DNA of 64,000 bases from Amyloporia xantha (taxonomy: Eukaryota > Basidiomycota > Agaricomycetes > Polyporales > Adustoporiaceae). Location of the stretch: NCBI GenBank assembly GCA_036971615.1, contig JAYKKR010000007.1, forward strand, positions 1,860,001 through 1,924,000, in the 5' to 3' direction. Position 1 is the first letter of the stretch. Each line of letters opens with the position of its first letter. A program made the translations under genes and the position numbers. A model generated the notes under the pieces. It saw only the letters and a program-made list of their open reading frames with translations. It was not told the origin of the DNA and did no database searches. Shown here in pieces: positions 9,060 through 44,653 of the stretch.

Positions 9060-9462
9060 GTGTAAGATGACCCGCAGCTTCTAAAATATCATTCCTGTAG
9101 TTGGATATGTATTTTGCGTTGCTTATCGACCTGTGGCTGTACTAGTCAGGATGAGGATAGTCGAAAAGTATATGGATTCCTTATTTATTACCGCCAACAT
9201 AGTTAGAAATGCCAGAAGTGAGTATTCTGACTGCGGAGATACGCCATTTCGCGCGAGACATTGTCATCGATTCCCATCTAGTAGAGTGCGGAGAGCTTGT
9301 ATCGACTGGCTAGCCATATTACACATGAGCTATCTATCTTGTACTGCACCTAAGTCTATCGCTTTTCCTAAGATGCCCGTGGGCGGTCGAGTTTCGGTAA
9401 GCAGCAGCAGATGATGAGAAGTGGGAAGAAATTCTTACAGGACCACAGGTTACATTATCGCC
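9060..9462. other. Intergenic, convergent gene ends
   Basis: The space between two genes that converge here. A 93-codon open stretch (9133-9414) has no protein-like features and is probably untranslated. Confidence 0.5.
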
Positions 9463-10590
9463 TTATAGTCTAGGTGGTGAAACGAGAAACGTTTCGCGGA
9501 TCTGGGCGAAGTCGTTGTCGGTTAGGCTAGTATATGTCTTCAAATAACCTTCCACTCCGCCGAATCGGTCGCGGATGGACGCAAGCAGATTTGCCATCGA
9601 CGATGGCCTATCACGATGGTATGGAGTTCTGCACATTGTGAAGCGAAGGATGACAGACGTACTTCGCGGTAGCCATATTCATGGTTCCATCCCTGTTGTC
9701 CCTGAAGACCTGCTCCTTCTCGAACCGCGCAGCTAGCAAGGGTAATGCTGGCTGCAATCCAATTGTGGTCAGTGTGTAATCCTTGATTATATCATCGTCA
9801 CTAGCTCCCAGAAGCTATCGGGGTCAAGTCAGAATCTGTTGGGAGACGAAGGCCAACGAGCGGTGTCGTCGCGCACCATCAAGATCACTGCAGCGAAGAC
9901 CCCAGTTCTGTCCTTGCCAGCTGAATTATCTGTCAGTCGAAAACACCCAGTGCTTAACACAGGTTGAGTTTACCTGTGCAGTGCAACAAGCACGGCTCGT
10001 CAGGGTTATCGCGCAGATGGACGAGAACAGCTTCCATAGCAGGTCCTCCGTGTTCCAGAATCTCAGTGTAGAGTTTCAAAAAGGTCTAAAAGAATTAAAA
10101 ATTACGAAGATATACTTGCGCTAACTGCAGACCTACTTCAGACTCATTGGTGGCGAAGGCTTTGATCCTGAAAGCAGCCAAGCCAAAGATGACGACCACT
10201 GCTCGAGTGAAAATATGTAGTCATGAATTACCTCTGAGCCATTCCAACAGGATCAAAAGCATCGTCTAAAATCGGTACTCTGACGAAGTCAACGCCTTCT
10301 ATTTCGGCATTGGCAGTCTTGTACTTCGCGATCTCAGCTTCGGCACGTAAATCGAACACCTTCTTGATTCCCAAGGCACGCAGTTGGTCTATACCTGCAG
10401 GTGTGATGCGTGTGGGCTCCCCTGACCGAAATAGGTAAGCAGGCTTCACTGTCGCGCCGGACGATGACGAGTATCCTCCAAAGTCGCGAATATTGATCAC
10501 GCCCTCCACAACTATAAAAGGAGGGGAGGAAAGTGCTGACTCGAGGACATCCTTATCCAGAGTCGGAAATGAGAACTGCTCGGAACCCAT
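9463..10590 (-). CDS. Tyrosine phosphatase family protein (SIW14/PTPLA-like)
   Basis: Starts MGSEQF at 10590. Exon 1 (10590-10232) carries the family hallmarks NIRDFGGY, a FRSGEPTRIT segment and KKVFDLRAEAE. Downstream exons were joined by splice consensus: an exon with IKAFATNESE, then TFLKLYTEILEHGGPA, then the P-loop HCTAGKDRTG, itself split by an intron between HCT and AGKDRTG. The C-terminal helices include LGASDDDIIKDYTLTTIGL, then EKEQVFRDNRDGTMNMATAK, and the end LVSPPRL before TAA at 9463-9465. The CX5R signature is intact (C-TAGKD-R), so the enzyme is predicted to be active. Fungal relatives are cytosolic and dephosphorylate phosphotyrosine, inositol pyrophosphates or phosphoinositides; which applies here is unknown. 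No signal peptide or membrane segment. Confidence 0.88.
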
Positions 10591-18084: not shown

Positions 18085-19975
18085 ATGGATATTGTCAAGC
18101 CAGATGCTCCTGTTGGGGCTCTCAGTGCACAGCAATTGGCAGCGTCGTTACTGGACAGACTGGACCAGCACAGTCATCTTCTGAGGTACGATACAACTTC
18201 CGTTTGGCGTTTCGTATGTAATCCTGATACCTAGTATATTCTCCTGCAGCGATCCAGTTGTGAGTTCATTTTTCAAAATCTCGGAATGCCTTTACAATTA
18301 ATGTTGTTCTGACCTCAATTTTAGCTGGATGTCATTCATCGCATGTTGATTTGCTCGATCTCCATTGTCCGCCGCCGGATCAATTCTCGACGCTCGATTA
18401 ACCAGCTACCTCCAGAGATCTTAGGTCTTATATTCAAGTTTATTCCGTCTCGTCCTGTCATTCAGTACTCCCGAGGACCTCTTTTCATGTGGCCGAACGC
18501 TTCCATTGGTACTACCCACGAATTGACTAAATTGACATGCGTTTGTCGCCACTGGCGCGAAGTCGCTGTGACTTATCGGTCTCTCTGGACCAATATTAGT
18601 GACCGTAGCTGGGTACTCGACATGATGTTAAAAAGGTCCGGGACAGCGTCACTGAAAGTACGCGTCAAAGACGTCCCCACTCGGTCGGCGGTAGACTTGT
18701 TTAGTTCTGCTGGTTCGCGTATACAGGAGCTCTATCTTCTCAACGTCAACAACATGCTCGAGCTCAACTGCGGCGATGGGATCGAGAAATACATCAACTT
18801 CACTCCCACGAGACTTCAGCATCTAACTTTGGCTACCGATGGTGATCGACGAGATTATAACATATCCCCTCGTCTTTTCGCCAGTGATGCACCCAATCTC
18901 AGGTCACTCACTCTCCAGTCTTTGTCTTGGCTTCCTCAAAACCAGTTCTTTAACCTGACCCAGCTTTGTATCTACGACCGTCGAAGAGGAGGGCCTAACT
19001 ACGAGTGTTTCATGACTGCCTTTCAGGTCTCGGAATTCCTTGCTTTTCTTGCTGGTTGTCCTAAGCTGCAAGACCTGACGCTGGTCGACATCTGGGTTGA
19101 TAGCAGGCGCGACCGCGAAGAAGATGCACAGGCTGTAGTCACTCTCAATAATTTACGTAGGCTTTCTCTAGGCAGAATGATTCCTCGTCTCGTCCTCTTC
19201 CTCGTCTCCCACGTCGTCAATCCTGCTGGAGTGGCAACCCGTATCTTTGGAATGACTTGCGGGGATCGCGAATTCCTACCGAGGTTGTCTACCATGCTCC
19301 CAATCCAAGGCATGAACAAGCTCCACCTGTCTGTCGGCCCTGGAAAGTCCTTCATCTTCGCGCCGACCACGGCTTCTCGCGGTCTTTGCGTTGAGTTCAA
19401 CCAGTGTCCTATGCCTTGTACTCACTGCCAGGAATGGGCGTCGCATCTATGGGCTCACTGGTCTCTCTTATCAGTACACGAGCTCTGGCTGACTGATCGT
19501 CTTCACCTGTCGAGATTCATGGGACTAGAACGCCTGGTGCGCAATCTGCCAAACGTCACCACCCTCTTCATCTGTCAATTCGAAACCGATGAACAGAAGC
19601 GGGCGAACTTCAGGTCCGAGCTCGACCGTCTTATCATTACTCTGACGACGCCTCGTCCTTCTCCTGCCGATTACTTGCTCTTCTGTCCTCATCTTACTAC
19701 TTTGCATGTCTGGTTCTGTGAACAACCGGTTGAGCCTTCGCTTCTCGTCAAGTTCGCCGCCGCGCGGGCCCAAGCTGGGTCATCCGATTCAGCATCTCAT
19801 CATCGAATGCGCACATCCCGGTCCCTACGATTCTTCTTTGAATTTCGACTCCGCCTTTGCTGTTCTCAAGACGCATGTCAATCGGGTGGATTTCATAATA
19901 TCTAGTGAGCCTCCGGCGAGGGAAGTACCCTTGGCATGTACCACCGGCATACACGAGTTCTGGCCAGCTTGGTAG
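18085..19975 (+). CDS. F-box protein with leucine-rich-like C-terminal region (late frameshift)
   Basis: Starts MDIVKPDAPVGAL at 18085. Exons 18085-18185, 18250-18259 (10 nt) and 18325 onward join in frame. The F-box is INQLPPEILGLIFKFIPSRP with the following VCRHWREVAVTYRSLWTNI, the usual Agaricomycete form. F-box proteins recruit targets to SCF ubiquitin ligases; the long remainder has LRR-like segments (LRSLTLQSLSWLP and LRRLSLGRM) that would bind substrate. Near 19776-19785 the expected C-terminus (PIQHLIIECAHPGPYDSS, ending HEFWPAW) continues in the neighbouring frame, so the sequence as given carries one extra base there or the gene is decaying. Without correction the protein ends at 19905 in unrelated residues. 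Confidence 0.8.
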
Positions 19976-20461
19976 CTCGAGCCTGGCCCTCCCTCTGCCA
20001 TAGCGACAAACTACATTACTATCCCATCCCATTGAACTTTCAATACTTCCAAATTTCGGACTTGGCTGCATTGTTTTGAATTTCTATCCAATTTTCTTAC
20101 GATCGACAGTAGCAATGTTCGTTGTGTTTGACTCTCGTACCCTGTTGAACGTTTTGTCATATGGACCGTCCATTGGCTAGTTGTTCCTAACGATTTACAA
20201 TCGCTCGGCTCACATTTCGTGAACTGTGCATGCATATGGAATTATTTTGCGGACCGACCAACCTGAGGATTAGAGCAAGTAAACTGTAAACACGATGTAG
20301 GTAAACGCCCAAACCCGGCGATAGATCGGAGACCATCGGGAGGTAAACTCCGACAAGCGATATTCGATCGGAGAGTGAATTGTCGTCATCTGTCCTCGTT
20401 GACCGAAATCCTCCGAGCAACATTTCTGTCGTTGACGAACTCTTATTATTCGACGGCCTTG
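19976..20461. other. Intergenic, F-box gene to MPP beta
   Basis: No coding signal beyond short shadow frames. It must hold the F-box 3' end and the promoter of the processing peptidase gene; no clear TATA box was seen. Confidence 0.5.
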
Positions 20462-22039
20462 ATGGTTTCAAGAACGCTTTCCGCCTCCCTCGGGCGTGCT
20501 ATTCGCAGCGCAGCGCGCACTCAGGTAGGTTTATTGCAACATAAACAGCGCCATTATTAACCGCAAATTCAGCGGCCATTGCGTTCGTTCGCGACAGCGG
20601 TCAACATTCCCAGCCCCATCACAGAGACGACAACTCTCTCTAATGGATTGACTGTTGCGACGGAGTCAAATCCGCATGCGCAGACTGCAACGGTTGGTGT
20701 GTGGATTGACGCGGGCTCGAGGGCGGAGACGGACAAGACGAACGGAACCGCTCACTTCCTCGAGCACATGGCCTTCAAGGGCACCAACCGCCGCGCCCAG
20801 CACGCACTCGAGCTGGAGGTAGAGAACATCGGCGCGCACCTGAACGCTTACACCTCGCGAGAGCAGACGGTATACTACGCCAAGAGCTTCCGCAAGGACG
20901 TCGGCGTGGCCGTGGACATCATCAGCGACATTCTTCAGAACTCGAAGCTGGAGAACTCTGCTATCGAGAGGGAGCGGGATGTCATCTTGCGGGAGCAGCA
21001 GGAGGTCGACAAACAGCTGGAGGAGGTCGTCTTTGACCACTTGCACTCGGTCGCCTTTGCTGGTACGTATGTCAGACTTACAGCGTCGACCGTTACTCAT
21101 AGCAATCTAGGTCAACCGCTTGGCAGGACTATTCTCGGTCCCAAAGCCAACATTTTGTCCATCAGCCGTGATGATCTTGCGTCGTACATCAACACGAACT
21201 ACACCGCTGACCGCATGGTACTTGTTGGCACTGGTGGGGTTGAGCACCAGGAACTCGTCAAGCTGGCCGAGCAGCACTTCTCGACGCTCCCTGTTTCCAA
21301 GAACCCTATTCCCCTCGGCCGCCTGTCACACCCCAAGACCAAGTTTGTTGGCCAGGAGGTGCGGATACGAGATGACTCTATGCCGACAGCACACGTTGCG
21401 GTCGCGGTAGAGGGCGTCGGCTGGAGCTCGCCCGACTACTTCCCGATGCTTGTTATGCAGTCCATATTCGGTAACTGGGACCGGTCGCTCGGTGCAGCAG
21501 GGCTGATGTCGTCGCGGTTGTCACACATCATCTCGTCGAATAACCTCGCCAACAGCTTCATGTCCTTCTCGACGTCGTACTCAGACACTGGCCTGTGGGG
21601 TATTTACCTTGTGACGGAGAACAACATGAACTTGGACGACCTCATGCACTTCACGCTCAAGGAGTGGACCAGAATGTCGATCGGCCCGTCAGAGGTCGAG
21701 GTTGAGCGTGCAAAGAGTCAGCTCAAGGCAAGCTTGCTGCTCAGCTTGGACGGCACGACTGCTACTGCGGAGGACATTGGCCGACAGCTTGTTACAAGTG
21801 GTCGCCGCATGACACCTAAACAGATCGAGCATGCAGTGGATGCCGTCACTCCTGCGGAGATTAAGCGAGTCGCGCAGAAGTACTTGTGGGACCAAGATGT
21901 GAGTCGTCTTCACTGATTTGAACCTTCGTGAGCTTAACATTTGTCCTTCTCATAGATCGCTATTGCTGCCATGGGTCCCATCGAGGGTCTGTTGGACTAC
22001 AACCGTATCCGTGCAGACATGTCATCGTTGTTATACTAG
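20462..22039 (+). CDS. MAS1: Mitochondrial processing peptidase beta subunit
   Basis: Catalytic subunit of the matrix peptidase that removes presequences from imported mitochondrial proteins; it works with the alpha subunit and is an M16 metallopeptidase. Exons 20462-20524, 20573-21062, 21111-21898 and 21956-22039 give exactly 474 residues, normal for the family. The N-terminus (MVSRTLSASLGRAIRSAART) is a basic, Ser/Arg-rich mitochondrial targeting sequence. The inverted zinc motif HFLEH is intact, followed by MAFKGTNRR, and the distal Glu of the zinc site lies about 76 residues on, as usual. The family end AMGPIEGLLDYNRIR is present. The coding part is GC-richer than its surroundings, consistent with high expression. 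Confidence 0.96.
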
Positions 22040-22973
22040 ATCTCACGCGAGGTGAGCTATCTTTTTCTTGAAATGTGATCATATTATTTACGCAAAAGCC
22101 AATTGTAGGAACAATTAGGGATAGACGTAAAAGTAGTCGTTACTTCCGCTCTGTCCTTAGATAGGGTAGTGGGGTTAATTCTCTTGCCTTTTCGCGTGTC
22201 GTCGAGTGTGCGCAAGCATTTTGTGAAGACCGACTTCTAGCAATTTTTATAATTGGGCTGCTCAAGTGAGTTATAGAAATGATATTACCCTCCAGCCCCA
22301 CAACACGGTTCCTCAATATTTCGCAGGAGTACCATTGATTCAATCGAGGCGGTTCTCAGTAAGATAAGAGAGACGTCCATCTGTGGCCTTGATGTGGGCG
22401 TTATGTAACTGTTGCCTGGCAGTCGTGGGTATACGCCGGCGTCATTTCGCTTTCTCATGAGATTGAGCTTATAGCTTGAATGCGAGTGGACTAATACAAC
22501 ATATTGAGAATACTTGGCAACAGCTCGCCTTGCGGAACCTCAGGAACCTCAGTGGGCTGAAGCCAGCATCGATTTGAAGCCAGTGGGATGGTAGCACCCG
22601 CGGAAAAGTACTCATGACACTGACAGACCACAATGATGGCGGGAGCGCTTGGTAGCTTTGATTTGCCCAGGTGAGCCTTCATGTCTTGTCGCGTCACAGT
22701 TCTTTGCTCGTTCCTTTGTTCATTCCCGCATGTTATCTACCTGCAACTCAGTCTTACCTCGTATCTAATTTTCCTATACGTCTAGCTCATGACTGGCCAC
22801 AAGGATGGAAGCTTCTGCCACCAGAGACCGACATTTCCTGTGCGGCTTCTGTCAGCGTCCATGGGATTGACAGTTGTACATATCAGAATCAGTCCATTGG
22901 CACATGATATCATCAGGAGGGTGTGGTCGGATGAGTGAGTGGGGGAGCTCTCGCTGCCTTTCTCACCCGTGCA
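22040..22973. other. Spacer, includes unresolved 5' exon(s) of the arrestin-like gene
   Basis: The first 550 nt look non-coding. A possible first exon begins with two ATG codons at about 22632 (MMAGALGSFDLP) and ends at a GT donor near 22670, but I could not join it to the conserved exon with confidence. Confidence 0.35.
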
Positions 22974-24318
22974 ATGCATCATCCACCCTCTATTGTCCTA
23001 TTCATCAAGCAGAGTGTCTGCGTCGCTGGAGGAGTTGTCTCTGGGTTAGTCGAGCTCTACTTTCCTCAAATCCAGGCGGAACAAATAGGAGAAGTTCGTT
23101 TGAAGCTCAGAGGGCAGGCACGCACGTACGCTTTCCCTCATTTACCTACCATCAATGAGTCTCCCGTTGACAATCGCACCACAGTTCCATCCGGCAAAAC
23201 AACTCGGTCGTAACAGATACCATCGATCTTATTCGATCGGATTGTTCACTCTGGACCCGAGGCGCCGCGTATCCACCTCCTGGCTCGCACTTCCTCACTC
23301 TCCCCTTCCAATTCGAGCTCACAGAAGACATCCCACCCTCGTTTGTACACCCGTCTGCGGCCGCTCCGTCTTTCATTCGCTATTGGATCGAAGCCGTCGG
23401 TGTTCGTCAGGGCGCTTTGAACAAACGTATCACATCTCTGTTTGCAGTGGTACCTCCAGATCCTAGTGGGTCACAGGTCCGGTCGCGGTTACAAAAAGGA
23501 TGGGATGGCCAATGGACAACAGACACGATACAGAAAGAGATTCGGAAAGGATTATGGGGCGACTATTCTCATGTCAAGATGGAAGTGAGTGGGTGCATCG
23601 CTACAAAGAGACGGCGCATATCATGGTGACATCGCGTTCGAAACAGCTTACTCGTCCATTTCTCTATGTGCTGCCCTTATTCGTCAAGATTCCGTTTGTG
23701 ATCGCAATAACCACGCGGAGCAGACCTGTCACACGAGACGAGAAGCATGTGTGGCCTGTCCCTCCATCAAGGCCAAACGAAGTCCGATTTGAACTGTATT
23801 CCAGAACTAAAGTGTGCGTTAGAGGTCTGCAGAGTGAGGAACGGTCTGGCCAGATAGTAGCAGCATTAGGAGGAATGCATGAACCCAGCGGTGATGTTGA
23901 TATTGAGTCACCGGAGAGAGGGTGGTTTCCGTCTGAAACAGACCCGGCCAAGGGCGTATGGAAACAAGAGGTGTTCTTCAGTTCGTGGTTCGAATTGAAA
24001 TCCACTCCATCGTTTCAGACTTCTACGATGTCCATGGAGGTGTGTCCCAAGTTCCTGTTGAAACGTGTGCCTAACATCTTTGCTAGTATCATCTGCATTT
24101 GCAGGTAAATTTTGGTGGCCTGTTCAACACATTGAGCATGGATATTCCTATTTCCGTAGTATCGGGTATGGTGGCACAGCATGAGATCTCTGAAGCGACT
24201 GAGGTGCTCGATCTACCTCCGTGAGTCTCCAAATCCTGTCGCGTCCCACAGCATACTTATCGTTCCTGAATCATCAAGTTCGTACTACAGTGTTGCGGAT
24301 ATAGACCACAAGGATTGA
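22974..24318 (+). CDS. Arrestin-like (alpha-arrestin) trafficking adaptor
   Basis: Arrestin fold proteins of this type link membrane cargo to Rsp5/Nedd4 ubiquitin ligase. The arrestin N half includes SIVLFIKQSVCVAGGVVSGL, then GEVRLKLRGQART, DLIRSDCSLWTRGAAYPPPG and LTLPFQFELTEDIPPSF. The C half includes PFVIAITTRSRPVTRDEK and NEVRFELYSRTKV. The last exons read NFGGLFNTLSMDIPISVVSG and end ATEVLDLPPSYYSVADIDHKD. A PPSY motif (PPxY, the WW-domain ligand of Rsp5) is formed across the final intron (DLPP | SYYSV). Introns were joined by consensus and keep frame from 22974 to the TGA at 24316. The true N-terminus may lie upstream; ATG 22974 is the first in-frame ATG of the conserved exon. Confidence 0.78.
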
Positions 24319-24772
24319 TGCTTGGCCCAGGCGTCTGTCCCGGGTATATGCATGATATAAGCCAGGTCTCGTGTCGCATTTGACGCTGTCTTCACCATCT
24401 TTCAGCTTCCAAGATGAGCGAACAAGCTTGCTTAGTTCCAGGGGTTCATTTGGTTATAGAATTCTTAATTGAGGACATTGGTTACATGTACAGGGCTCGG
24501 CAGGCTATGCCGGGTCTTCAAGTTTGCGAGGAGCACCTGCGGTGGCCCGAGGAGTTACCTAGGGAAAAGTAATCTGTATTGATTGTAATTGAGACTCTTC
24601 CAGGATCGCGCGTACTTTGTAGATTTAGAGTGGACAGTCGAATAATTATATTCCTACTTACTTTCCTAATTCATTCATGACGTGCTTCGAGTCGGTCTTA
24701 TGACCGGCGCTCGCTGTGCGGTGGGACTGAGAAAGCCGTGGTCGTGCTCGCCGTACGTTCTCTTTCGCGACG
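24319..24772. other. Intergenic, arrestin-like gene to ETF beta
   Basis: No convincing gene. An open frame from 24682 overlaps the ETF beta start in another frame and is a shadow. Confidence 0.5.
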
Positions 24773-25922
24773 ATGAGGCCCTCCGCAGTGCGATTGCTAA
24801 ATATTCTGGTCCCTATCAAACGGCAGGTCACTTTCCTGTGCGTCGAACCGACATCTCATCGTTGTGCAGGACAGTCGACTATGCGGTGAAGATCCGTGTA
24901 AACCCTGACCAGAAAGGTATCGACCTCAATGTGAAACATTCAATGGTGCGTCCTTCACCTACTTTGGTCTGCGCTAGAGTGTCTCATACAAAGACTCCAC
25001 AGAACCCATTTGACGAGATCGGTACGTACGCGCTGGCCTACACTTGTACATACATACACGGGGGTGGTTAACGTGACCCTACACAGCGGTGGAGGAAGCT
25101 GTACGTCTACGGGAGCGCCTCAAGGATACAGTAAAATCTATCAAGGTTGTCACCATTGGGCCACCAAAGTCCGCAGAGACAATTCGCACCGCGCTCGCTA
25201 TGGGAGCGGACTCCGGCATTCACGTTGAGGTGCCCGACGGCGCACCGGCTCCAGAGCCACTCGGTGTTGCAAAGGCGCTGCGCGCGGTCATCCAGCGACA
25301 GAAGGAAGGCGTAGACCTGGTCATCATGGGCAAGCAGGCTATTGACGACGATGCGGGTCAGACGGGGCAGATGCTTGCGGGGCTTATGGACTGGGCGCAA
25401 GCGACATTCGCGAGCAAAGTTGTGCTTGACATGGAGAAGAAGGAGGCGACTGTGACGAGGGAGATCGACGGCGGGTTGCAGGAGCTGCGGTGTCGTTTGC
25501 CGTTGATTGTCACTACTGACCTTCGGTAAGTGAAAGTGCTGCTGGTGGAGGAGAACATGTTGCGCTGATTGCTGCTTACTCCAGGCTTAACGGTGGGTGA
25601 TAGCGCTAGTGCTCACAGGAATGTATATTCATCTCCACACAGAGCCGCGATATGCTTCGTTGCCCAACATCATGAAGGCCAAGAAGAAACCAATAGAGAA
25701 GCTGACACCTGCAGATCTGCAAGTGGACCTCACTCCTCTGCTAGAGACTGTCAAAGTGACAGAGCCTCCCAAACGACAAGGCGGTGGAAAAGTCAGTATT
25801 TTACTTTTCACGTTAGGCAAAGTCATCATTGATCATTGGTCTCAATTTCCCCTCAGGTTGCGAATGTAGACGAGCTGATCGCGAAACTGAAAGCAGCAGG
25901 TATCACTCCTGTGTCTTCATGA
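24773..25922 (+). CDS. Electron transfer flavoprotein beta subunit
   Basis: Mitochondrial matrix protein that, with the alpha subunit, carries electrons from acyl-CoA and other dehydrogenases to ETF-ubiquinone oxidoreductase; the beta subunit binds AMP. Seven exons (24773-24822, 24870-24945, 25003-25021, 25087-25525, 25585-25592, 25643-25791, 25857-25922) sum to 807 nt in frame, 268 residues, close to the family's roughly 255. Hallmarks: [17 protein letters not shown], then [55 protein letters not shown] and [12 protein letters not shown]. Two splice oddities: intron 1 only gives the conserved KRTVDY if its donor is GC (24823), and exon 5 is an 8-nt microexon (25585-25592) encoding the joint of LRLNEP. 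Confidence 0.95.
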
Positions 25923-26674
25923 TGACGAGATTTATTGGCGACGGCAGCCTGACTTCCGTTATCCCCATTATGTTCGCTGCGTGTTATCCCCGAATACATG
26001 TATAATTTACCACGACCATCTGCGTCAATCCTACCTCATCGCTACAGAGAATTCTTGCATCAGTACGCGCTCATAATATTGGTCGACGGAGATACGTCCG
26101 CCATCACCACGCTGACGCTGTCGGGCGACGGCTAACATAAGCGTCTTCACGCCGCTAAGCTTGATGCACACGCCTACCACATGCTCTTTCTATGCGCCTC
26201 CCACCCGCTGAAAACCCCGGTGTTGACTGTACCCGCTGCCAATTGATGAGACAGCGAATTATCGAAGCTCTGACGGCTTTTGTTCCCGACCCACACTGCT
26301 ATGTCAATGTTACTCTGAATCTGAAGCGACTCAAGACATCGTCATTACTCCGTGATACGTGAACTCGGCAGATCATCATGATTGGAGCCTTTGCCTGCTA
26401 CGCTGTCTTGTCTTGTTCAAGGACCGTGAACGCGAGGCAGACCTCATGAACATCAGAAATGACCTTCCCTGACTAGGTCAATTCCGAATTACCCAGTCGC
26501 TCAAGGCTCAAAGTAGCTTCTCCCTGGCTCCCAAGCCTTCCGCCCTGTCCTTATCACCTCATACCCCCGTCTGGTCTTTGAACAGACACCTCAAGTGTGC
26601 TTTCGCCATCCCCTAGCCGTCAGACAACTCGACCGCTATCCTCACCTTGTACCACTTTGCGTGCCACCAGGGAG
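25923..26674. other. Intergenic, ETF beta to DUF202 gene
   Basis: No coding region recognised. Overlapping frames from 26595 belong to the 5' side of the DUF202 gene and are not conserved-looking. Confidence 0.5.
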
Positions 26675-27274
26675 ATGGACAAGACCTCTGTTAGGGACGA
26701 TACTGTTTCAACGCGGACAGATGTCCAGGTCCCGTTATCAGATCAAGCGCAGTCCACCGACTCTACCGGGAGCGACGGCGAACAGAGGAGCAATGAAAAG
26801 CGGACAGTGTTCGAGGTGTTACGGCGCAAGCTGAACCCAGCCCTGACGTTGGAGAATTCAGGGAGTGTCGCGAGAGACCACCTTGCTGCAGAGCGGACAT
26901 ACCTGGCGTATGTGCGGACCAGCCTTTCAATAGCATCGACTGGTGTCGGTACGTTCTACAGGGCTCTCGGACATCCGTTTGTCGTGATCGCTCACGGTAG
27001 TCATATCTCGTAAACTGTAGCCCTCGTGCAGTTGTTCAGCATCGCAGGCAGCACAAATCAGAAGTTGCTGAAGTACTCCCGACCCCTCGGTGCGACCATC
27101 ATAATTATTGGGTTATGTACCCTATTCCTGGGCGTCGTCCGATACTTCTCCGTGCAGACGTTACTGCTCAGGGGCATGTACCCCGTCGCCCGAATGGGTG
27201 CAGTCCTGGTGGCGATTGCGCTCTGCGCTATCATTGTAGCGACCTTCGGAATCTTAGTCGCCTCCCGAAGTTGA
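26675..27274 (+). CDS. DUF202 family small membrane protein
   Basis: Exons 26675-26948 and 27021-27274 join in frame to 175 residues. The N-terminal 60 residues are polar and Ser/Thr/Asp-rich. The DUF202 hallmark ARDHLAAERTYLAYVRTSLS leads into the first membrane segment, followed by two more (about TIIIIGLCTLFLGVV and VLVAIALCAIIVATFGILV). DUF202 occurs alone in small fungal membrane proteins and as the membrane part of VTC polyphosphate complexes; with no SPX or VTC catalytic domain here, the role is unknown. An alternative ATG further upstream is unlikely because the frame is not conserved-looking. Confidence 0.88.
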
Positions 27275-27609
27275 GAGTCTTATGGATCTCTTGGTAATAG
27301 GTAAGCATGTAGTCTGCGGTTCAGTCACTGGCGTGGATGGTTGACCAGACCACTGCTATAGGAAGCCGAACGTTCTGACGCCGGTATCACCCTTGTCGAG
27401 CTATGACTCCTGAAGTGCACCGTCGGTAGGATGGTGTACTATTCTACCAATTTGCTGGCACGTACGGGTTCTGTGGGCAGCTAGATGACATAGAAGGACG
27501 ACCCTTTATGATAATGATGTACTTGGCTACGGACTTCGTTACGACGGATAACTGTAGCTTTTAATAAAGTGTATTTCTACGTACAAATACACAGGTACTA
27601 TGAGATACA
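27275..27609. other. Convergent intergenic spacer
   Basis: Between the stop codons of the DUF202 gene and the flavin monooxygenase. AT-rich toward its right side (TTTAATAAAG near 27560); no gene seen. Confidence 0.5.
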
Positions 27610-29319
27610 TCAGGAGATCTCCACATAGAAGTCCGGTGTGGGTACCTCTTCACCATGCTCCTTCTCCCACTGCCTCTGCGACTCGATGATCCGGTACAGT
27701 AGGTCCACCCATTCATCCTCAGTCGTCACGCCCTCCAACCACTGCGCTTCCTCACCCGCGGCCTGGATTCTCCGCCACCCCCGATAGAACAGAACCCACT
27801 GAGGTCGCTGCATCCGCCTCCACTCCTCCACATATGGCTTGCCGTCATCCGGAAGCGCACCGTGCTTCTTGAGATGGTCGATCAAGTTATCCTGGTAGTC
27901 TTTATCCTCATTGTCCCCGTCGACAAGCTGATGTCCCATGTAGTACGGGTCATAGCCCCGCGCACGCAGCGACTCTTCCCGCGCGACGAGCTCCTGCAGC
28001 ATGTCCGCATGCGGCGGGAGCAGGGACGCATTAGCGAGCGTGTGGGCGATGAAGGTCCCCTGCGCCAGGTCCGAGGGACAGTTGGACACGTCGCTCGGCA
28101 GCCCGACGAACGCGAGCGCCGTGGGCGGGACATTCGGCGCGAGACTGAATATCTGCCGGTACAATGGGAAGATGTAGTGCAAGTTGCTCATCAGCGTCGT
28201 CGCCGTCGTCGAGTTGGCGGTTGTCGCGGGGTCGGTGCGCATCGCGGAGGCGTGCGGGGCGCAGAGGAAAGGCACGCGGAGTTCGTAGCCTGTGCCGAGC
28301 ACCACGGCGTCGACGTCCGTGAGTGCGGACCCGTCTTCGAAGACTACAGAGTCATGGGTGAAGTGGGTGATGGGAGGCTTTGGAATAACGGCCGCGCCTT
28401 GTGTGGGCGACTTGCCCTCTTTGATGGACTGGTATGCCTACGAATCGCAGTCGTTGCAGCGTAGTTTCATGTAAAGCGCGGGAGCACCTACCACCTGTAC
28501 GAGAGGACCGACTTGCAGCGCAATATCTGAGGCACTGGCTCCCGAGCCGACGATGAGAACGCTACGGTTTGCATATCTTTCTGGGCGGCGGTAATATATT
28601 GAATGCAAAATCTCGCGGGATGGGCCTCCGGGCGGCGAGCTCGCCAGCCAATCATCCGTGCCCGACCAGGTGGGGATGAATGGATAGTGATTATGTCCGC
28701 TCGCGACGATGAGATGGTCGAACGTCCTCTTCATAACCACCTCTCCATCCGAATCGTGGTGATGCGCGTGCACCTCGACATGCCAGTCCCCATGGACCGC
28801 GTTCCCATGCCATTCAGTGGAGACGACTGTGTGGTTAAACCTGATGTACGAAGTCAAGTCGTTATGCACCGCGAAGTCCGCATGGTACCTCTGGACGGCA
28901 TCCCACATCGGGAAGAAAGTGGTGCCTTCGGGGAAGGGGAAGTGCGGGTATATCATCGTGATGGAAGGCGTGTTGGTGTGCAGCAAAGGGTAGGTAGGCG
29001 TTTCGGGGAGCTCAGGCGGGTGTGGCTCATACCCCGGAGGATCACCCAGCCAGATCCCGCCGACATCCCTCCGCTCTTCATACAGGATGACCTCCCAGCC
29101 CGCGCGAGTTTCCGCGGGCAGGTCGAGAATGGCTTTCAGTGCGCCCAGGCCAGCGCTACCTGCTCCGACAATGGCTATCGACTTCGTGGGCTCATTCGAT
29201 GGTGAGGGGTATACAGGTGAATAATGGCTGCCACCAGGAAACCACTGCAATGGGACCTCTAGCTTGTCCCATAAGGACAGCGGCAGTAGAGACAGTACGA
29301 GCTGTCTGATGTGGACCAT
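27610..29319 (-). CDS. Flavin-dependent monooxygenase (FMO-like)
   Basis: Two exons (29319-28495 and 28437-27610) join in frame to 550 residues. The FAD-binding Rossmann motif is IAIVGAGSAGLGALKAI (about residues 48-64); the second nucleotide-binding motif is VLIVGSGASASDIALQV. Between them is an ASGHNHYPFIP segment, which resembles the FMO/BVMO fingerprint region. DAVVLGTGYELRVPFL is the late conserved motif of FMO enzymes. A hydrophobic N-terminus (MVHIRQLVLSLLPLSLWDKL) could anchor it or send it to the ER. Such enzymes hydroxylate N or S atoms or do Baeyer-Villiger oxidation using NADPH and O2; substrate unknown. The coding DNA is GC-rich and has strong open antisense frames, which are shadows. 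Confidence 0.9.
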
Positions 29320-29674
29320 GGTGGTCGGTAGAAGAGGGAGAGTTCCGCACGAGGAACGGTGGTGTGAACGGTCTTACCTTGAGGCTAATGCTCGCAGCGC
29401 TACGGTGATATTCCTACGATATCCGGTATGGCAAGCACGACTACCAGGATCCAGAAACCAGCCTGGTCTAGCTGTCCTTGGGAAAAGTGCAAGAAGCAGC
29501 TTCTGGGCTTCATCATTTGTGATTAGGTTCCGAGTTGAGGCGAGTCGGAGCGTTTAGAGGTTACGCTTGTAGCCACTTCACAGATAAGTAGACCACATTG
29601 AAAGAGCATGGCTCAGAAGAAGCAAACGTTGAGGATAGTTCAAGCACATAAGTCCTCAGTGCAGCCATGTCAAT
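29320..29674. other. Spacer before the inverted-repeat element
   Basis: Upstream region of the flavin monooxygenase; no other feature recognised. Confidence 0.45.
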
Positions 29675-35800: not shown

Positions 35801-38011
35801 CCAATCAGATATCATTTTTGTCTACGCGTTTGTCTACCGTGAGAAAAAGTCCACGGCTCTTGTAGTATAGATAGGCGATGTCCAGTCACAGGTGTAAGTT
35901 GTCTTAGACCGTCTCTATATTCCGGTGCCTCCAAGCGAATGACCGCGTTTCGCACTTGCTCTCACATTTCCATCTGCCGCCTCGCCGGGCCGCCCGTGGG
36001 TTCATTCTGGGAAGCCACACATGTACTTCTGATAAGTCTCCCTCGACTCCGATCTGCCCGCGCTGACAGGCTTCTCCTGGTCGGTTTTCATTGCAATATT
36101 TAGCTACCAATTGTCCGCTGTCTTGGTGTCGATATCGTGTTGCGCGGCTAACGTTCGTATGTTTCTCATGACAGGGAAAACGGAGGACGGTTCATTCGCG
36201 CAATGATCAGATGGTTCTGGCTATTGACTTTCTAATGCTAGTGTCTGTCTAGGGTCCGTGGTTTGACCGATTGCTGGATAGAGTTCTGCAGTCCCTTGGG
36301 CGCGTAGAACCACTCGAATATTCCCAGCGCAAAGAGTGAACGGTGGTCTTGACGCAAACTGACCACGCGCTCGATATCCGCAGATCGTGCGTCCAAAAAT
36401 CCGAAGACAAGAAAGCCAGTTCTTTTCTGGGATATCGGCCTGTTGGAATAATGCGGGCATGATCTCTTCGGATCCCTACCATCATGCAGCTCAATATGTG
36501 GGAGTTCAATCATATCATGAATTTCCCAGGTATGTCTTTCGACGATTTAGCTCCTTGCCATCGAGTGTAAGCTATTTTCTCGGCGGTCGTTTGCGTATAA
36601 TAGGTTCTAAAGTCTCCGGATGTCATTTCAGGCTCGTAGATCAACCTTGACATCTAATTCTGGATCTTTCGGTCGTTGTCCGAGTGGCTCTTTTTTCAAA
36701 GTAAACATCCGCTTGCTGTCATGTCCCTCCTTTGTAGTACTTTTTTCTGCCAATGAACTAACAGAAACGAGTCGTTTCGGTATCCTTCCCCCTCGAAAAG
36801 CTTATCGAAGTCATCGGACCGCAAGACGACGCGTTAACCGTAAACAGTAGATTTGTGCTGTACTTCATATTCAAGGCGGGTAAGATTCTGGACACCCGGC
36901 ATGAATTGTGACTCGCTTGCGTAGGACCGATATTGATCCATGCACTGTCTCCAATTGTTATGCACTGTGGGTCCCTTCGTATCACAGCCACTGCTCTCAA
37001 CTTACGTCTTCGCTACTCGGCTCAATCCGAAAGTAGCAAATATGACTGGGTAGGTCGTATCATCCGCTTATTATCAGTCTTGCACGCGGTGACAATATCC
37101 TTAGATCTAGGTGTGTTCGCCATGATGGGAGTGCAAGATCAAAGAACGACAAAATAGTGGGGTGCTCGGTGCCTCGAAATCCACTGTCGCCTTTCACATT
37201 TACGTGGAACGAGTCATAGTCATACCCCAGTGGCAAGGTGATGATGTCGCTTATATTAAACACCATCTTTGAACGGCTTCTGACCATCTATGCATGGATC
37301 AGCGACAGCTTTTCCCGCATAAGGGGAACACTTTGTCCTCTTCAAGCGTAGTAAAGACTTTCGATGAAGAAGCGTCCCTGCACAGTGAGTTGCTGTAACT
37401 CTACCACGGTACCATTCCTCATGCCCAGAATTGCAGTCGCACCCCCTATTCACACCGCTAAGGAGAATACCCGCGGAAATATGTGACCTCGCGCCAAGCC
37501 ATGGTGCCGTTGAAATGGGGACCTAAAGGGCAGTGTCATTGAACGCAATTTATATCTGCACCTCGTGTTTCTGACTCTGTCATGCCAGCAACCGAGTGTC
37601 AATGACAATGTGTCCATGTTCTGTTGTCCCCCAGATGATGCTTCGCTCATGTTTACAAAATGATCGATTTGCCCGTTGTGAGATCTGTGCTAGACCACGA
37701 TGTGATGATGGCTGAGATCCACGCTTTGAGCTTGAGGCAATACTTCCCACAGTCTGCTTAATTCGTATCGACTGACTCCCCGCGTGAATCCGGCTAGCTC
37801 GTGGACCCACAACATACTCATTCGTCACCTCAAATGGTGAGGTAGGATAGATGGAAGGTCACCACGACCAAGGGTATGCATATGCCAATTTACGTATGTC
37901 TCAGAAAGCGCGTCTCCTCATAAAAGCGGGAGACAACGCGCAAGATATCGTCAACATTTCGACCTCGACAACCCACCTTCGAGTCCCTCAGAATTTGTTT
38001 AGACATTCCTC
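35801..38011. other. Spacer with scattered protein-like minus-strand frames
   Basis: Minus-strand frames at 37650-37450 (MSEASSGGQQNMDTLSLTL), 37287-37060 (FNISDIITLPLGYDYDSFHV), 37000-36920 (RAVAVIRRDPQCITIGDSAW) and 36513-36238 (KRTGFLVFGFLDARSADIER) look like separated exons of one unknown or decaying gene of about 1.4 kb. I could not join them in frame and recognise no domain. Confidence 0.3.
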
Positions 38012-39513
38012 ATGACTCTTGACAAACAGTTAGAGACTCTTCGGTCTGCCGTTGTCGACAAACCTCCATACCGTTCAGGGACGCTCTGCCTCCCTGATTG
38101 GCAGTATCGCGTGTACTACGGTAAAGATGATTCTGCGCGGTGAGTCGTCGATCATATTGGGACCTCTTTCGCATGCCATGACCAATGGTATGTATTCTAG
38201 TCGAATTGATCTAGCACATGCTACGACCGAAGAACTGGAGCACCTTACCAGCACTTGCGATGCCGCTACATTTGGCATTGATAACAAGAACGTTCACGAT
38301 GAGTCGTACAGGAAAGCTCGCAAGTTGGACTCTCAGGATTTTTCCGTGAAGATCGATCCGGATGGTGCGGGCCTGCTCAAGGTGATCCGCGAAGATCTGT
38401 TGGAGGGACGTGCGCAGAAGCCGATATACGCAGAACTGTATAAACTGAATGTTTATGGTACGTTTTGCCTTTGACCATACAGTGGCCGTGTGGACTTACT
38501 CGAATGGCATAGGGAAGGACGACTTCTTTAAACCTCACATGGATACTCCGCGGAGTGAATCCATGTTTGGTTCGCTCGTGATCGTGTTCCCGACGCCTCA
38601 CGAAGGTGGCGCTCTCGTGCTGCGACACGATTCCAAAGAGTGGATCTTTGACTCGGGCAAACAACTCGCTGATCAAGACAAGCCTTGCATTGCGTACACC
38701 GCGTTCTTCAGTGACGTCGAACATGAAGTCACCCCAGTCACGTCAGGATATCGAGTCACTCTGACGTATAATCTATATGTTAGGAATGCACTCGTTCCAG
38801 ATCCATGCGCCACCTTGCATCGCGATAACGAATTGCTGCTCAAAAAGACATTCGAACAGCTTCTCACCGATCCCAATTTTCTACCGGAAGGTGGTCTTCT
38901 TGGCTTCGGGTTGCACCATCGGTACCCCGTCGACATCGACTACAGAAGCAGCGGGTGGTTGACGACCTTGTTAAAAGGGAGCGATGCTGTACTCATGAAG
39001 GTCTGCAACGAGCTCTCGCTGACAGTGGACTTGAAAGTGGTCATGGAGGACAAGTCGAATGATGTGCGTGTCATGATGGAGACAGTCCCTCTTATGGACG
39101 ACCTTGCGATAGAAACCGCGGTATGGAGTGTTCTGCGAGATGATGGGGGTAAAGTGTTGGCAGGGTATGGAACGGACCCGGAAGATTACTCGCCATCAGA
39201 GCCCGACGTGACTGTTCACTGGGTAACCCAAACGCCGAAGGCTTTTCAAATTAACAGTCCCTATGCTTGCTACGGAAACGAGGCCTCTTGGGACTACATT
39301 TACGGACGATTCTACCTTATTGTTGAAGTCGGCGCGTTGGCAGAACGGAAGTTGGAACTCCAGGGCAATACTGATTCGGAGGTGGAGCTGACAGACGAGC
39401 TAAAGGCAGAGTCGACGGACCAGGTACAGGCGGCATCGACGGGCCAGGTAAAGGTGGAGTCGACAAACCAGGTACAGGTGCACGCGGAAGCAGAGGAGGG
39501 AATAGAGGATTGA
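38012..39513 (+). CDS. 2OG-Fe(II) oxygenase (prolyl 4-hydroxylase-like)
   Basis: Starts MTLDKQLETLRSAVVDKPPY at 38012; introns at about 38141-38201 and 38458-38512 keep frame. The iron ligands are in FKPHMDTPRSE (HxD) and SDVEHEVTPVTSGYR (distal His, with the Arg that binds 2-oxoglutarate nine residues on). FGSLVIVFPTPHEGGALVLRH is the family's core strand. This subgroup of basidiomycete oxygenases has about 220 further residues after the core with no assigned role. The C-terminus ends in three 8-residue acidic repeats (39406-39477). It hydroxylates an unknown protein or small-molecule substrate. It faces the ATPase gene at 39.8-43.2 kb tail to tail. Confidence 0.88.
39406..39477 (+). repeat. 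Three tandem 24-nt repeats in the oxygenase C-terminus
   Basis: Units encode AESTDQVQ, AASTGQVK and VESTNQVQ; each nucleotide unit shares TCGACGGRCCAGGTA or a close variant. Confidence 0.8.
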
Positions 39514-39836
39514 TACGCACAATGAGCTGGTGACGCCTGACATTGTATCGAATCGAGTTGTTTGTACATTCTACTGTTCTCGTGTTTTATCATCTATCGC
39601 CACGAGCTATTGCAGCGAGAAGGGTCAACTGGGCAGTCACGCGTCTGGGACGGTCCTTGTGCTTGACTAGGTCATCGCTGTCATCGCTGAATATGACTGC
39701 ACATTGTTTTATCATGTCGACATCGTACTGCTTTCATGAAACAAAGATCGTTGCAAATATCAGAGCCACGCGAACGCTAGTAGTAATAGAATCACCGATC
39801 AAGTACCATTACTTACGACCCAGAGGACAACAGTAA

Positions 39837-42800
39837 TCATATGTGGTGCAGATGCCCTTCGTCGCGGTCAGTTTCATACCTCTGCCCACCCAGATCAACC
39901 CAGTTCGAGGAGAATCCATCATCAATACCGGTTCCAGGATTCTGGGATTGACGAAGCGCTTTCCGCGCTGTTGACATGTTGCCGTCCGTATAGATCGCCT
40001 CCCAACCGTACCAGGCTTGTAGCAGCGCATTCCATTTATCCGAGTCAGTGATGGGCCCAAGAGTTTCGTGACTCAGCCCGGCACACCATATATCGTAGGT
40101 CCGGAACCGTGGGTCTGCCAGTGGGTTACTCTTCTCCCCACTCCGTGCGCCTGGCTTCTCGTCCGTTTCATCTTCCGCCGCCAGTCTGGCCGTGACAGAA
40201 GGCGTCTTTGCTGCAAGTGCGAATACAATCCGTATGATAGGGACTGGCTTCTCTGGCGTGTCTTGCGGCCTCTCGTCATCGAAGAAGCCAAGCTTTGCAG
40301 GGTCCATCATGTCGAAGAGCTCCCATGTGGGAGTGCTGGTGTATCTCCTATCCAATTTTACTTGCCACATGAGAAGACCCGTATTCTTGACAGAGATAGC
40401 CTTCTCCTTTTCAATGCAGAAAGCAATGACACCGTCAATGCCAGGTTGACAATTGCCGCAGATGACCCCTGCGCCGCGCACCATCAAGCGCATGATGTTC
40501 TTGCGCCGCGTAGCGTCGAGCTGGTGGACCTTGTGGAAGTGATTGAAATGGAAATGGGAATCATTGATGTGCGTTCGCAGTGTCAACTTCGAGCCAGGGG
40601 CATCGTGGGTCGGTACTGTATCGAGGACGTCACAGCATGACACGCGGAAGAGATTGTGTAGAAAGCTCGCCAGACTCAAAACACGAGTGCCGCTTTCTGG
40701 TCTGCCGTCCCTGCGAGGCGGTCCAACGGTACGATCCCGTGCGAGGGTCATCAACAGGAAGACGATGAGCTCTCCTCGATCACCTTGGTCTATCCCATAC
40801 CCTTGCAGTACAAGATTTAGCGCAGCAGGTGGATCAAAATGCAAGCCTTTGTCTTGCATCACAAAGTAGGCTGCTTCAGCCAAGACTGGTTCGGATCCCG
40901 AGACACTTTGCATGCTTTGGAAGTCGCTGCGACTCCCAAAGCATGCAGAGTTGACCGCATCGATCTTCATACACACCCGCATGTGGTACTCGACCTGCTC
41001 CTCTTCTTGTGGAGTAATGAAGGGCGTGGTCTTGAACTCCAACGCTAGTCTCTGGGAAAGCACTGCAAACGTCTGGCTGTCTCGCAGTCCCGTCATTCCT
41101 CCCTGGTCTTCAGCCAGCAATTTACTTGCTGCGAATGGGATAAGGAGCTCTTCCGTCGTTGCATTTCGTTTATCATAAAGAGACCCGAATCTGTAAGAAT
41201 GAACAGTGAGGACATTACTGGTACTGTCAAATGGAGGTACTCACAATGGGCGACCAAGATGCGTCATATACTCATCCGAAGTCACGTAGTCCAGATTCCA
41301 ACCACCATCATCACGAAACTTCTTAGCAAGGTGATCAAATCCAAGATCTGTGAAAGGCTGGATAAGTTTAAGTCCGCCCTCTGTCACCCTCCTTGAATGG
41401 TTTGTTGAAACCGTAGGAGAAATTTGCAATATGTTGCTTGTCGTCGAAAGGAAGAGGGAGAAGAGGTGGCAGTCATTGAGCCCCCGAAGAGCACGCCGCA
41501 GTTCGATGAAGTTTGTGCCTTCTGATTCGATATTCGACTTAGGGTGACTCATTGTCGCATCCGATGCAAAAGTGAATTTTCCCTGTTTGATGTTTAGAGA
41601 ATGTGCTTCATCAAAGACTAGCACAACTCGAGGCGGCCTCTTCTCTTTCTCCACGGACATATCTGTGCTCTGTGCTTACGAGTCAGCTTCACAATCACAA
41701 ACAACCAATGCCATGCTTGCTTACCTGTACGTTTTCCGTTAACGCATCAATCAGCCTCTCGAAAGCAACCACTGGCCCAAAGATGTTAGGCCGTTTTCCG
41801 TCGTGATTGGTCTTACTGGACGAGGCATGCTCCTTCACATATTGGGACATTCCGCTCCTGACTTTCTGTGGTATTTACTGTATCAGATAAGCAGAGATAA
41901 TGAAATTGTTGATGTTCTCACATCATTTGCCATATTGACCACACGATCATAGAAACCCTCACGGAAAGGACGCTGCTTATTTGCCATCTGACCTTCGGAC
42001 ATAAGTTCCCTAAATTTGAACGCAATTTGTGTCTCCGTCTGCATCTGGCCATCTTGCTTGATCCATAACACGCATCGTTCCGTCTCTTCAAATAGTGCCT
42101 CTAAGAAGGCAGAGGCCCGTTTGAGTACTGTTCCCGGATTATCAAAATGGGCGGTAAGAAAATCCCGTGGTTTGACATCTGGAGGAGGAAAACCTAGAGA
42201 TTGGCCATCAGCACTTGTCACACCACCAATGTATGAGCACAAATATCTTACCAGTTCCACCACTCCTTAAATTCATCGGAATCACAAAACGAGTCTTTGC
42301 CAGCTCGTCGACAACCCGGGATTTACCCATACCAGAGGATTGAACAATAGGGAAGTAGTTCGCGTAAATGTTCTCGGATGCCATGGCGTTGATAAGGACT
42401 GGTTTGAAGTGTGTTGTGATGTGTTCCCATACAACTGATACTGCCCCGCCTGCAAAGGGAACGGTCCAAGCATCTTCCACCGCTGCAACAGCAATCAGAA
42501 TTCAGGTAGCGGCGATGACAACCCACCCGTACCTCTGAATTGTTGCCTAATATGTACATCCAGTCTACTTCCACCTGCCTCTCGTCCTGCAGAGTCACGA
42601 CGTCTGAGGAATGTTGTCAAGAAAGTTCGTTAATTTGACTGTTATTCGAAGCGGACTGCAAGAGGAAAACTCACGTATATTGCACACCTCTTTCCATTCG
42701 CCGGATCGTATAGCCTGACCGAATAGTTTTTCCAATCCGACATAATCATCTGCTTTGAATCCAGCGTGCATCCTTTCACTCGCTTTAGCCTGCTCCTCAT

Positions 42801-43167
42801 CACTGTCGCCAATGTCTTCTACAATAGATCGAAGGGACGGATGTGCTTCGATTAACTTTGAAGAAAGTGCAGCAAGCAGAGATATAACTAGAGGAATACT
42901 GCTATATGGGCGCCGAGAACCAAGAGCACGAAGATTGTTAGGGAGGGTTTCTGTCGTGTATGCTGATTGTTGTGCAGCTACTTCGATACATTGGCGCAAC
43001 TGGGGATTGAGCGCTACCCAATCGTCGGAGGAGAGTGGAAGTCCTTCCTGTGCGCATTTCTTGCTCGGCGACTGACCATCCAGAGAGCTGCCCGACGGGT
43101 TTCGTTTGGCCTGAATTTTGCCGGGCCCTGGCGCACTACCGGTTCCGGTGGCAAGAGTGGAATGCAT
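39837..43167 (-). CDS. Large P-loop ATPase with a restriction-endonuclease-like C-terminal region
   Basis: Multi-exon gene of about 1000 residues, starting MHSTLATGTGSAP at 43167. N-terminal 40 residues are basic and disordered. A helical region follows (about residues 50-190). The ATPase part has a variant Walker A, IVQSSGMGKSRVVDEL (first Gly replaced by Gln), Walker B RVVLVFDEAHSL and a sensor-1-like FLSTTSN. The large last exon (41120-39837, 427 codons) contains GNCQPGIDGVIAF and, after about 20 residues, LLMWQVKLD: an Asp followed by a QxK, the pattern of Mrr-like members of the PD-(D/E)xK superfamily. Introns at 42.65, 42.5, 42.25, 41.9, 41.7 and 41.2 kb are consensus-based; one (near 42.5 kb) is uncertain. 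ATPase assignment is good; the nuclease is inference. The architecture resembles NTPase-REase proteins of the Crinkler type. Confidence 0.75.
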
Positions 43168-44653
43168 TGTGAGGACGCGTCCACTTCAGAACGCGTCTCT
43201 CAAGGGCACGGTCACGTGTCGTCTTCGAAATCAGAATCTTCAGCGGTGCATTCGAAAGGCGTCTTTGTCTTAGACCTGTGCCTGTACATATTCTACCCCC
43301 TCCGAAGTGTTTGGAAATCGAGCTCAGCCTGAAGCTCATCCAGAAGAAAGACTGAGATCCAATCATCATTCTTGTTGTTTTTACGGTCTCTGCAAACCGC
43401 CATGAACTATCTGTCAGTTTCAGATACGTGGCGCTTCCAAGCATCGCACAGATGAGTACTTTCCAGATTATGCGACAAGATATTCTTAGCCTCAAGCCAA
43501 ATCAATGGAGACAAAAAAACTTCACGCTGTGCTAGCTGTCAGTACTTGTCTCGTGAATGGCTCAGGTATAATACATATTACGCAGTCTATGCAGTGAAAA
43601 ACACAGAACATCGCGTACTACGGAGGCACTGCTATACGTCAGTAATGTTGTATCAATGCCTTCCCTCATATGGACATTCCTGACGCCACGAGTTCACGCA
43701 CAGTCCTGACGCGCTGCTTCCTGAGACTGTCGATAATGTATCGGAGCGGCCGTGTGTCGTCGATCATGCAATCACGCAACGAGCTGATGGGCGCGGCGGT
43801 CATCCGAAATAAAAAATGTATAGTGGTTAGTTCCATGCGCGATAGAGGCTATAGGCCTTTCTTTGCTGGACAGAAGTAGGCCCGAAACGGTGCCATAATG
43901 CTTTCGTCACTGTACCGTAAGCAGTGAACTCAGAACTAGTATACCCGTCGCTACTCTAATGGATCAGGCGATCAGAAAGCTCTGTTTGTGAGTCATCATC
44001 TGTTTCTGACCATTCGGTGCATTCCTACACCATGGCAACCATTCTGTCTTTCTGCAAGATTTTCTCTGTATTTGTTCTCAAATCATGTCAGCTTCCCTAG
44101 TGGCACAATTCAGTCCCTTTGATATATTATATCAGACTTCGAAGTTCACGGTCATTCCTCATCTCAGTTCAACAACGTGAGAGCATATTTTCTGTGTCTC
44201 AATATTGCCTTACTCTCATCCGTTTGCATCGGCCTAGCATTGCACACTCGTCGGAAGTTGGTCAGCGCTCATGCCGCATCTGCAGCGGTTCTCTGATGCC
44301 GATGAATTGGCATCAGTCACTCGGCTAATGGAGATCACTTAATTACATTATTGACTTTGTCTTCCAGGTGAAGCTGTAGAGACTGTGTAGGATGAAGATT
44401 CCGTAGTCAGGATTTGAAATGATGTGAATCTTGGAGTTGACAAGTTTTTGGGCTCGCAACACTCCCATTAGAATCCGAAGGTATGCCTTCCGACCTTCCA
44501 TTGAATCTGGTTGACGTATATATACGAATGATTAGATTGGCTGCTTCAAGTCTGTTTGACATTTACTCAAGCGTGCCCAGGGGCGGTGACATACTAACGA
44601 GCTACGTAATTGTTCCGAAGATATAGGCGTCTCTGAATTCTTCGCGGACCGCG

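Follow-up and report, generated by a model that had tools for sequence, protein, structure and literature searches.

Conflict proteins that join an NTPase to a restriction-endonuclease-like domain (REase) are best known from the effectors of oomycetes, with related elements such as Medea1. According to a review, a P-loop NTPase combined with a REase accounts for slightly over one quarter of the C-termini of CR (Crinkler-RHS-type) proteins, and the REase is believed to bear the toxicity, under the control of the accompanying NTPase or kinase (PMC5289972); few of the CRN-like proteins of chytrids carry signal peptides (PMC5364385), and most of those of Rhizophagus are without one (PMC6131194). 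According to two further reports, Medea1 combines CR-NTPase8 with CR-REase7, and the CIF loci of Wolbachia, whose nuclease domains are related to CR-REases, undergo gene conversion among their genes (both PMC11342252); Spok is a killer with a nuclease and a kinase (PMC12693581).

The locus described here lies in a window of 64,000 nt from Amyloporia xantha (assembly GCA_036971615.1, contig JAYKKR010000007.1, positions 1,860,001-1,924,000, forward strand), and its minus-strand gene probably encodes an intracellular NTP-regulated nuclease, composed of a P-loop ATPase and a Mrr-like PD-(D/E)xK-type domain (Table 1). We prefer a model with six exons and 971 residues, predicted from splice sites and open frame, in which intron 1 (42674-42483, 192 nt) is the doubtful join. 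This model is favoured because an intron 1 of 192 nt keeps three copies of the gene in frame; when the splice sites were mapped from the window onto its paralogues, three of the four regions joined (the copy on contig C41, and C50a and C50b, both on contig C50) stayed open to near the C-terminus, and in the fourth, on contig C25, exon 6 was broken by a one-base deletion. One in-frame stop was flagged in each C50 search match, and the first stop in the joined frames of C41, C50a and C50b fell close to the end of the window protein. An alternative of seven exons and 991 residues, with a 71-nt exon at 42603-42533, was set aside as less probable; the extra exon requires a poor donor, and identity between copies in this stretch is 69%, a minimum in four of the five copies. 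On the other side, low identity is not peculiar to the stretch (accepted exon 5 stands at 70%), and one of its frames is without a stop in the window copy and in C41, C25 and C50a. The 991-residue version served as the query of the first relatives search and as a row of alignment A1; the two models differ only at about residues 161-184 of the longer one, and the doubt over intron 1 leaves the motif calls untouched.

Table 1. Features of the locus, in window coordinates; residue numbers refer to the six-exon model.
Feature	Position	Strand	Basis and remarks
Block duplicated on C41 and C50	35925..43249	.	blastn; 35925-43177 82% on C41, separate short match to 43249
2OG-Fe(II) oxygenase, large exon (PF13640)	38449..39513	+	Pfam E 1.6e-7; convergent with the ATPase-nuclease-like gene
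ATPase-nuclease-like gene	39837..43167	-	Six exons, 971 aa; splice sites and open frame
Exons of the ATPase-nuclease-like gene	43167-42675, 42482-42252, 42193-41922, 41865-41725, 41669-41245, 41190-39837	-	GT-AG introns
N-terminal header, residues 1-164	42675..43167	-	Poorly conserved; without LFLAK, hydrophobic leader or Pfam match
Walker A variant QSSGMGKS, residues 212-219	42319..42342	-	Lys in 50/50 aligned relatives
Walker B VVLVFDEAH, residues 394-402	41601..41627	-	Asp 49/50, Glu 47/50
Sensor-1-like STTS, residues 454-457	41436..41447	-	First Thr 50/50
Glu661 of GDRGE, candidate active-site Glu	40770..40772	-	Glu 49/50
Asp773 of PGIDGV, candidate metal-binding Asp	40434..40436	-	Asp 45/50; hhalign places it on Mrr Asp203
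QVK, residues 797-799, candidate catalytic QxK	40356..40364	-	Gln 45/50, Lys 44/50; on Mrr QAK 219-221

The Walker A, the Walker B with its DEAH and the STTS claimed by the sequence-only reading of this DNA are all present on the minus strand at the place it proposed, as is the claimed Asp with a QVK about 20 residues on, the Gln standing 24 residues after Asp773. Its claim that a single protein holds both an ATPase region and a conserved Asp...QxK region was borne out by alignment A3, which comprised 50 of the 78 relatives then known, fragments and close repeats having been omitted by choice. Walker A precedes Walker B, and the Lys of the one and the Asp of the other are conserved, as in a P-loop NTPase (AAA/STAND-like); the conserved Asp and QxK stand in the right order for a PD-(D/E)xK motif. 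When the 768 columns of A3 were ranked by conservation, the Lys of Walker A was placed at 13, the Asp of Walker B at 39 and the Thr of the sensor at 16; the Glu of GDRGE, which belongs to the conserved block GDRGEL (residues 657-662), was placed at 32, the Asp at 80, and the Gln and Lys of QxK at 21 and 75, respectively. Judged by these ranks, the named motifs can be taken as more than chance. The Asp column was nearly invariant in an alignment of 14 protist sequences (A5) as well.

The sequence-only reading proposed co-variation of the Asp and the QxK as a check, and A3 leans in its favour: the Lys of QxK was absent from four of the five sequences without the Asp and from two of the 45 with it (Fisher p 0.0003), or from three of four against two of 45 when one gapped row was excluded (p 0.002). 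The joint loss is suggestive but not decisive, because three or more shared losses were found in seven of 201 similarly conserved column pairs, the Asp/Lys pair included. The same columns bear on a competing and less probable account, in which the C-terminus of a P-loop ATPase is something other than a nuclease and keeps Asp773 and QVK for structure or ligand binding. That other residues are better conserved, such as His738 of FNHF (rank 4 of 768, above the Asp773 and QVK columns), speaks for this account, whereas the joint loss, and the conservation of Asp, QxK and Glu together across fungi and protists, argue against it and are in keeping with the NTP-regulated nuclease.

Profile searches gave evidence on both sides of this question. 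No Pfam nuclease model matched the 50 relatives of A3 or the 14 sequences of A5, and Pfam returned two sub-threshold DUF matches and nothing else on five exon frames of the window; no match judged real was obtained when solved structures were searched by sequence. Models of PADLOC and NCBIfam, run on 50 members, matched one member each (BrxF two), and these matches were taken as chance, both the best of them (LmuB, E 0.00054; mad8, E 0.00089) and those named for nucleases (CARF_PDDEXK, E 0.028; typeII_restric_endo, E 0.061).

Mrr-like nucleases use a D...QxK signature. A profile of 13 Mrr catalytic domains, which joined that of E. coli K-12 Mrr to two from viral contigs and ten from plasmids, was compared by hhalign with the mushroom and protist profiles, both of which put the Asp on Asp203 (GID) and the QxK on QAK 219-221. 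The scores of the nuclease regions (20-25) exceeded all 100 column shuffles with the mushroom profile and 99 of 100 with the protist profile. Four other family regions reached 10-14 against Mrr, and the two nuclease regions 20-23 in that comparison. However, the hhalign probability was 1-6%, and among six unrelated controls, five of which scored 10-14, the comparison of the protist nuclease region with the mushroom NTPase region reached 26.1 (P 0.0077), above the Mrr comparisons. Between A3 and A5, the nuclease regions matched at 99.9% probability. The score against Mrr is weak, and what speaks for likeness to Mrr is the register of the alignment. The lack of a Pfam nuclease match and the control that outscored Mrr count against the NTP-regulated nuclease and for a C-terminus of another kind, and a further point against the nuclease is spacing, as 112 residues separate the conserved Glu and the Asp in the mushroom protein and 31 separate them in E. 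coli Mrr, provided that Glu172 is the counterpart. The identical register in two profiles, and scores above the shuffles and the other family regions, point the other way, and the NTP-regulated nuclease remains our preferred reading.

Three protein searches yielded 91 distinct relatives (32, 46 more and 13 more), a lower bound because each search scored only the roughly 8,000 candidates that shared most words. Named species that we take to be Agaricomycetes account for 65 of these, among them Amanita, Laetiporus, Lactarius, Russula, Cantharellus and Laccaria, with Ceratobasidium and Rhizoctonia among the crust and root fungi; the sequence-only reading was right that look-alike hypothetical proteins form a large family in mushrooms, with at least 65 members in Agaricomycetes. 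Six other named relatives come from Wilcoxina, Acaulospora, Batrachochytrium salamandrivorans (two) and the oomycete Nothophytophthora (two), and the remaining 20 have no species name. Precomputed Pfam domains among the relatives consisted of SAP and Rho_N only, in five environmental proteins (P0075, P0079, P0083, P0087 and P0088), and were C-terminal on re-scan where positions were given. SAP and Rho_N domains commonly bind nucleic acid. Pfam also gave weak matches, at best E 0.0029 for AAA_16 (four of the 50 members) and 0.011 for AAA_22 (two), which, like the C-terminal SAP or Rho_N, are consistent with an NTP-regulated nuclease. Within the limited reach of the scans, no relative turned up among viral, phage, plasmid or prokaryote sequences, a point against that reading; a search for McrB relatives in viral contigs gave nothing usable.

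In a midpoint-rooted tree of 38 rows (35 relatives and three of the copies from this genome), the latter formed one clade within the mushroom part, and oomycete, chytrid and environmental rows fell outside that part. Cantharellus was placed with Russula and one row of Amanita muscaria, which hints at old paralogues or transfer. The tree was given little weight because many of its branches are long and the base of the mushroom part is not resolved.

The searched genome comprises 46.8 Mb in 60 contigs, and copy counts are lower bounds; it contains at least five near-full copies, namely those of the window, C41 and C25 and two on C50, whose last exons lie at 45.9-47.2 kb and 52.4-53.6 kb, as well as one copy cut by a contig end. 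Weaker matches occur on C50 near 76 kb and on C41 near 96 kb. The last exons are 82-88% identical to that of the window copy. The cut copy, which runs off the end of C58 (L043, about 8480-10000) some 92 kb past the window copy, has several small insertions and deletions, and a GTTAG-type repeat run close to the C25 end (L052) is perhaps telomeric. The C41 copy and C50b are 99.5-99.6% identical over 8.4 kb, in two pieces, and may be two haplotypes of one locus, in which case C50 carries one extra copy. The tandem extra copy was found only on C50, and the two contigs share stretches that are 97.8-99.6% alike in opposite orientation (L039-L041, L044, L045). Some 250 bases between the ATPase-nuclease and 2OG genes on C50 (L040, about 3821-4067), absent from C41, are perhaps a small insertion.

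By a counting method, dN/dS was 0.29 between the window and C41 copies, 0.36 between window and C50a and 0.29 between C41 and C50a; for residues 640-840 the respective values were 0.21, 0.38 and 0.19. With dN/dS well below 1, the family is apparently under selection, as would suit an NTP-regulated nuclease. The copies are also mosaic: C50a is almost identical to C41 at residues about 197-440 and nearer to the window copy from there to about residue 739, as it is over much of the header; beyond residue 739 its affinity is mixed. In 250-base steps along the window and C41 copies, identity was 75-83% in the ATPase half and header, 86-94% at 37175-39924 and 78-83% at 36675-37174. Positive selection was considered as the cause of the low identity in the ATPase half and header, but recombination among diverged alleles was preferred, because dS itself jumps along this pair, from 0.34 to 0.90; recombination between diverged copies would account for these patterns better than positive selection.

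Low dN/dS in copies so diverged would also fit a role in host defence, in which the protein would serve inside the cell as a sensor nuclease, cutting the nucleic acid of transposons or viruses. The SAP and Rho_N domains of relatives and the absence of a hydrophobic leader and LFLAK point in the same direction, but an unsystematic look revealed no link to transposons or defence genes, and we regard this role as less probable, on a par with a C-terminus that is not a nuclease.

Immediately downstream lies a gene for a 2OG-Fe(II) oxygenase (2OG), whose large exon is 323 bases from the stop of the ATPase-nuclease gene; the neighbours at 18325-29373 are ordinary-looking, with an F-box protein, an M16 peptidase and pieces of a flavin monooxygenase. 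At E 1e-10 or better, with six candidates scored, the 2OG was found in four places, each adjoining an ATPase-nuclease copy: the window, C50 (54250-55275) and C41 (117371-118396), both 86%, and a fragment on C25 (41968-42360). C50a is without an adjoining 2OG gene. The dN/dS of the 2OG against its two full copies was 0.33 and 0.32. The simplest account of this arrangement is a duplicated two-gene block, and the two genes possibly form a functional pair. As for a mobile element, the edges of the block, inspected by eye in the comparison of the window with C41, showed no conspicuous terminal repeats or target-site copies.

A 2OG gene found solely beside nuclease copies, and several mosaic copies in the genome, one on C41 and two on a near-identical stretch of C50, could reflect a selfish killer element, one that harms nuclei or progeny without it and whose possible protector is the 2OG or its own ATPase part; Medea1 and Spok, as characterized above (PMC11342252, PMC12693581), offer precedents. 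Against this stand the lack of any known killing phenotype, C50a without its 2OG neighbour and C25 with a 2OG fragment only, and the copies may merely travel in duplicated segments; we consider such an element rather improbable. More speculative still, and in our estimate very improbable, is a two-gene selfish or nucleus-against-nucleus cassette, in which an NTP-gated nuclease would be paired with a convergent 2OG that protects or licenses the home nucleus, the pair being kept in the dikaryon by duplication and gene conversion.

The sequence-only reading had also stated that the protein lacks the LFLAK-type header of secreted effectors, and this was confirmed for the family: no LFLAK-like motif was found in the first 120 residues of any of the 91 relatives, and a hydrophobic N-terminus, by the cut-off chosen, was present in one of the 91 and absent from the window protein. 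The Pfam Crinkler model matched neither the five exon frames of the window nor 50 members, and the RHSP model PF07999 (trypanosome RHS) did not match the 50 members at E 0.1. Whole-genome searches with PF20147 (Crinkler) and PF07999 were silent as well, a silence that says nothing because the controls were silent too. From the counts of LFLAK-like motifs and hydrophobic N-termini, the mushroom protein would fall outside the Crinklers as their header defines them. The possibility of a secreted effector of Crinkler type, directed at another organism, for which the broad NTPase and REase architecture of many CR C-termini would speak (PMC5289972), is accordingly given little credence on those counts; the missing leader and LFLAK are not conclusive against secretion, since few chytrid and Rhizophagus CRN-like proteins are described with signal peptides (PMC5364385, PMC6131194).

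Under the preferred NTP-regulated nuclease, Glu661, Asp773 and Lys799 (after Gln797) would form the metal site of the predicted nuclease domain, which would have a restriction-endonuclease fold and metal-dependent catalysis. The ATPase, presumably coupled to it, would gate the nuclease or position it on nucleic acid, probably DNA, as proposed for CR NTPase-REase proteins. The likely site of action would be inside the mushroom cell, where the protein would counter foreign or selfish DNA, or be a selfish element itself, and would not serve as a secreted effector. As a multi-copy, apparently selected family without a Pfam model, these mushroom proteins would offer a tractable test bed for NTPase-REase conflict proteins, in which to ask if they guard DNA, promote their own spread or settle contests among nuclei housed in one cell.

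Among known systems, E. coli Mrr (Mrr_cat, PF04471) shares the GID...QxK signature with the mushroom protein in the same order but is without an ATPase; PF04471 had no match in this genome, though it matched in eight of 14 control genomes. The suggestion that the mushroom look-alikes may be one undescribed system went too far, as CR-class NTPase-REase proteins are already in print (Zhang et al. 2016, as reported in PMC5289972, PMC6131194 and PMC11342252); no account of the mushroom family itself was found in the literature consulted, which consisted mainly of titles and the openings of abstracts. The family is of a known broad kind that is little described in mushrooms. CR NTPase-REase proteins, as described, likewise combine a P-loop NTPase with a nuclease-like domain and are scattered over eukaryotes, and their described fungal members have few signal peptides; the mushroom family is without the LFLAK-like motif and is likened to them by architecture and description. 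The motif order, NTPase then nuclease, fits the CR architecture, with the nuclease part as a candidate.

Medea1 of Tribolium is an NTPase and REase element that kills embryos, and the mushroom protein would resemble it in architecture, killing not being known here; gene conversion among the CIF genes of Wolbachia, with their CifB REases, resembles the mosaic mushroom copies. Spok, of Podospora and Fusarium, is similar in being fungal and multi-copy and in having a killing domain homologous to nucleases, but its partner domain is a kinase, whereas that of the mushroom protein is a P-loop ATPase. Of these comparisons, the best reading of the motifs and of the analogy is that the mushroom protein would act like a CR-class NTPase-REase protein.
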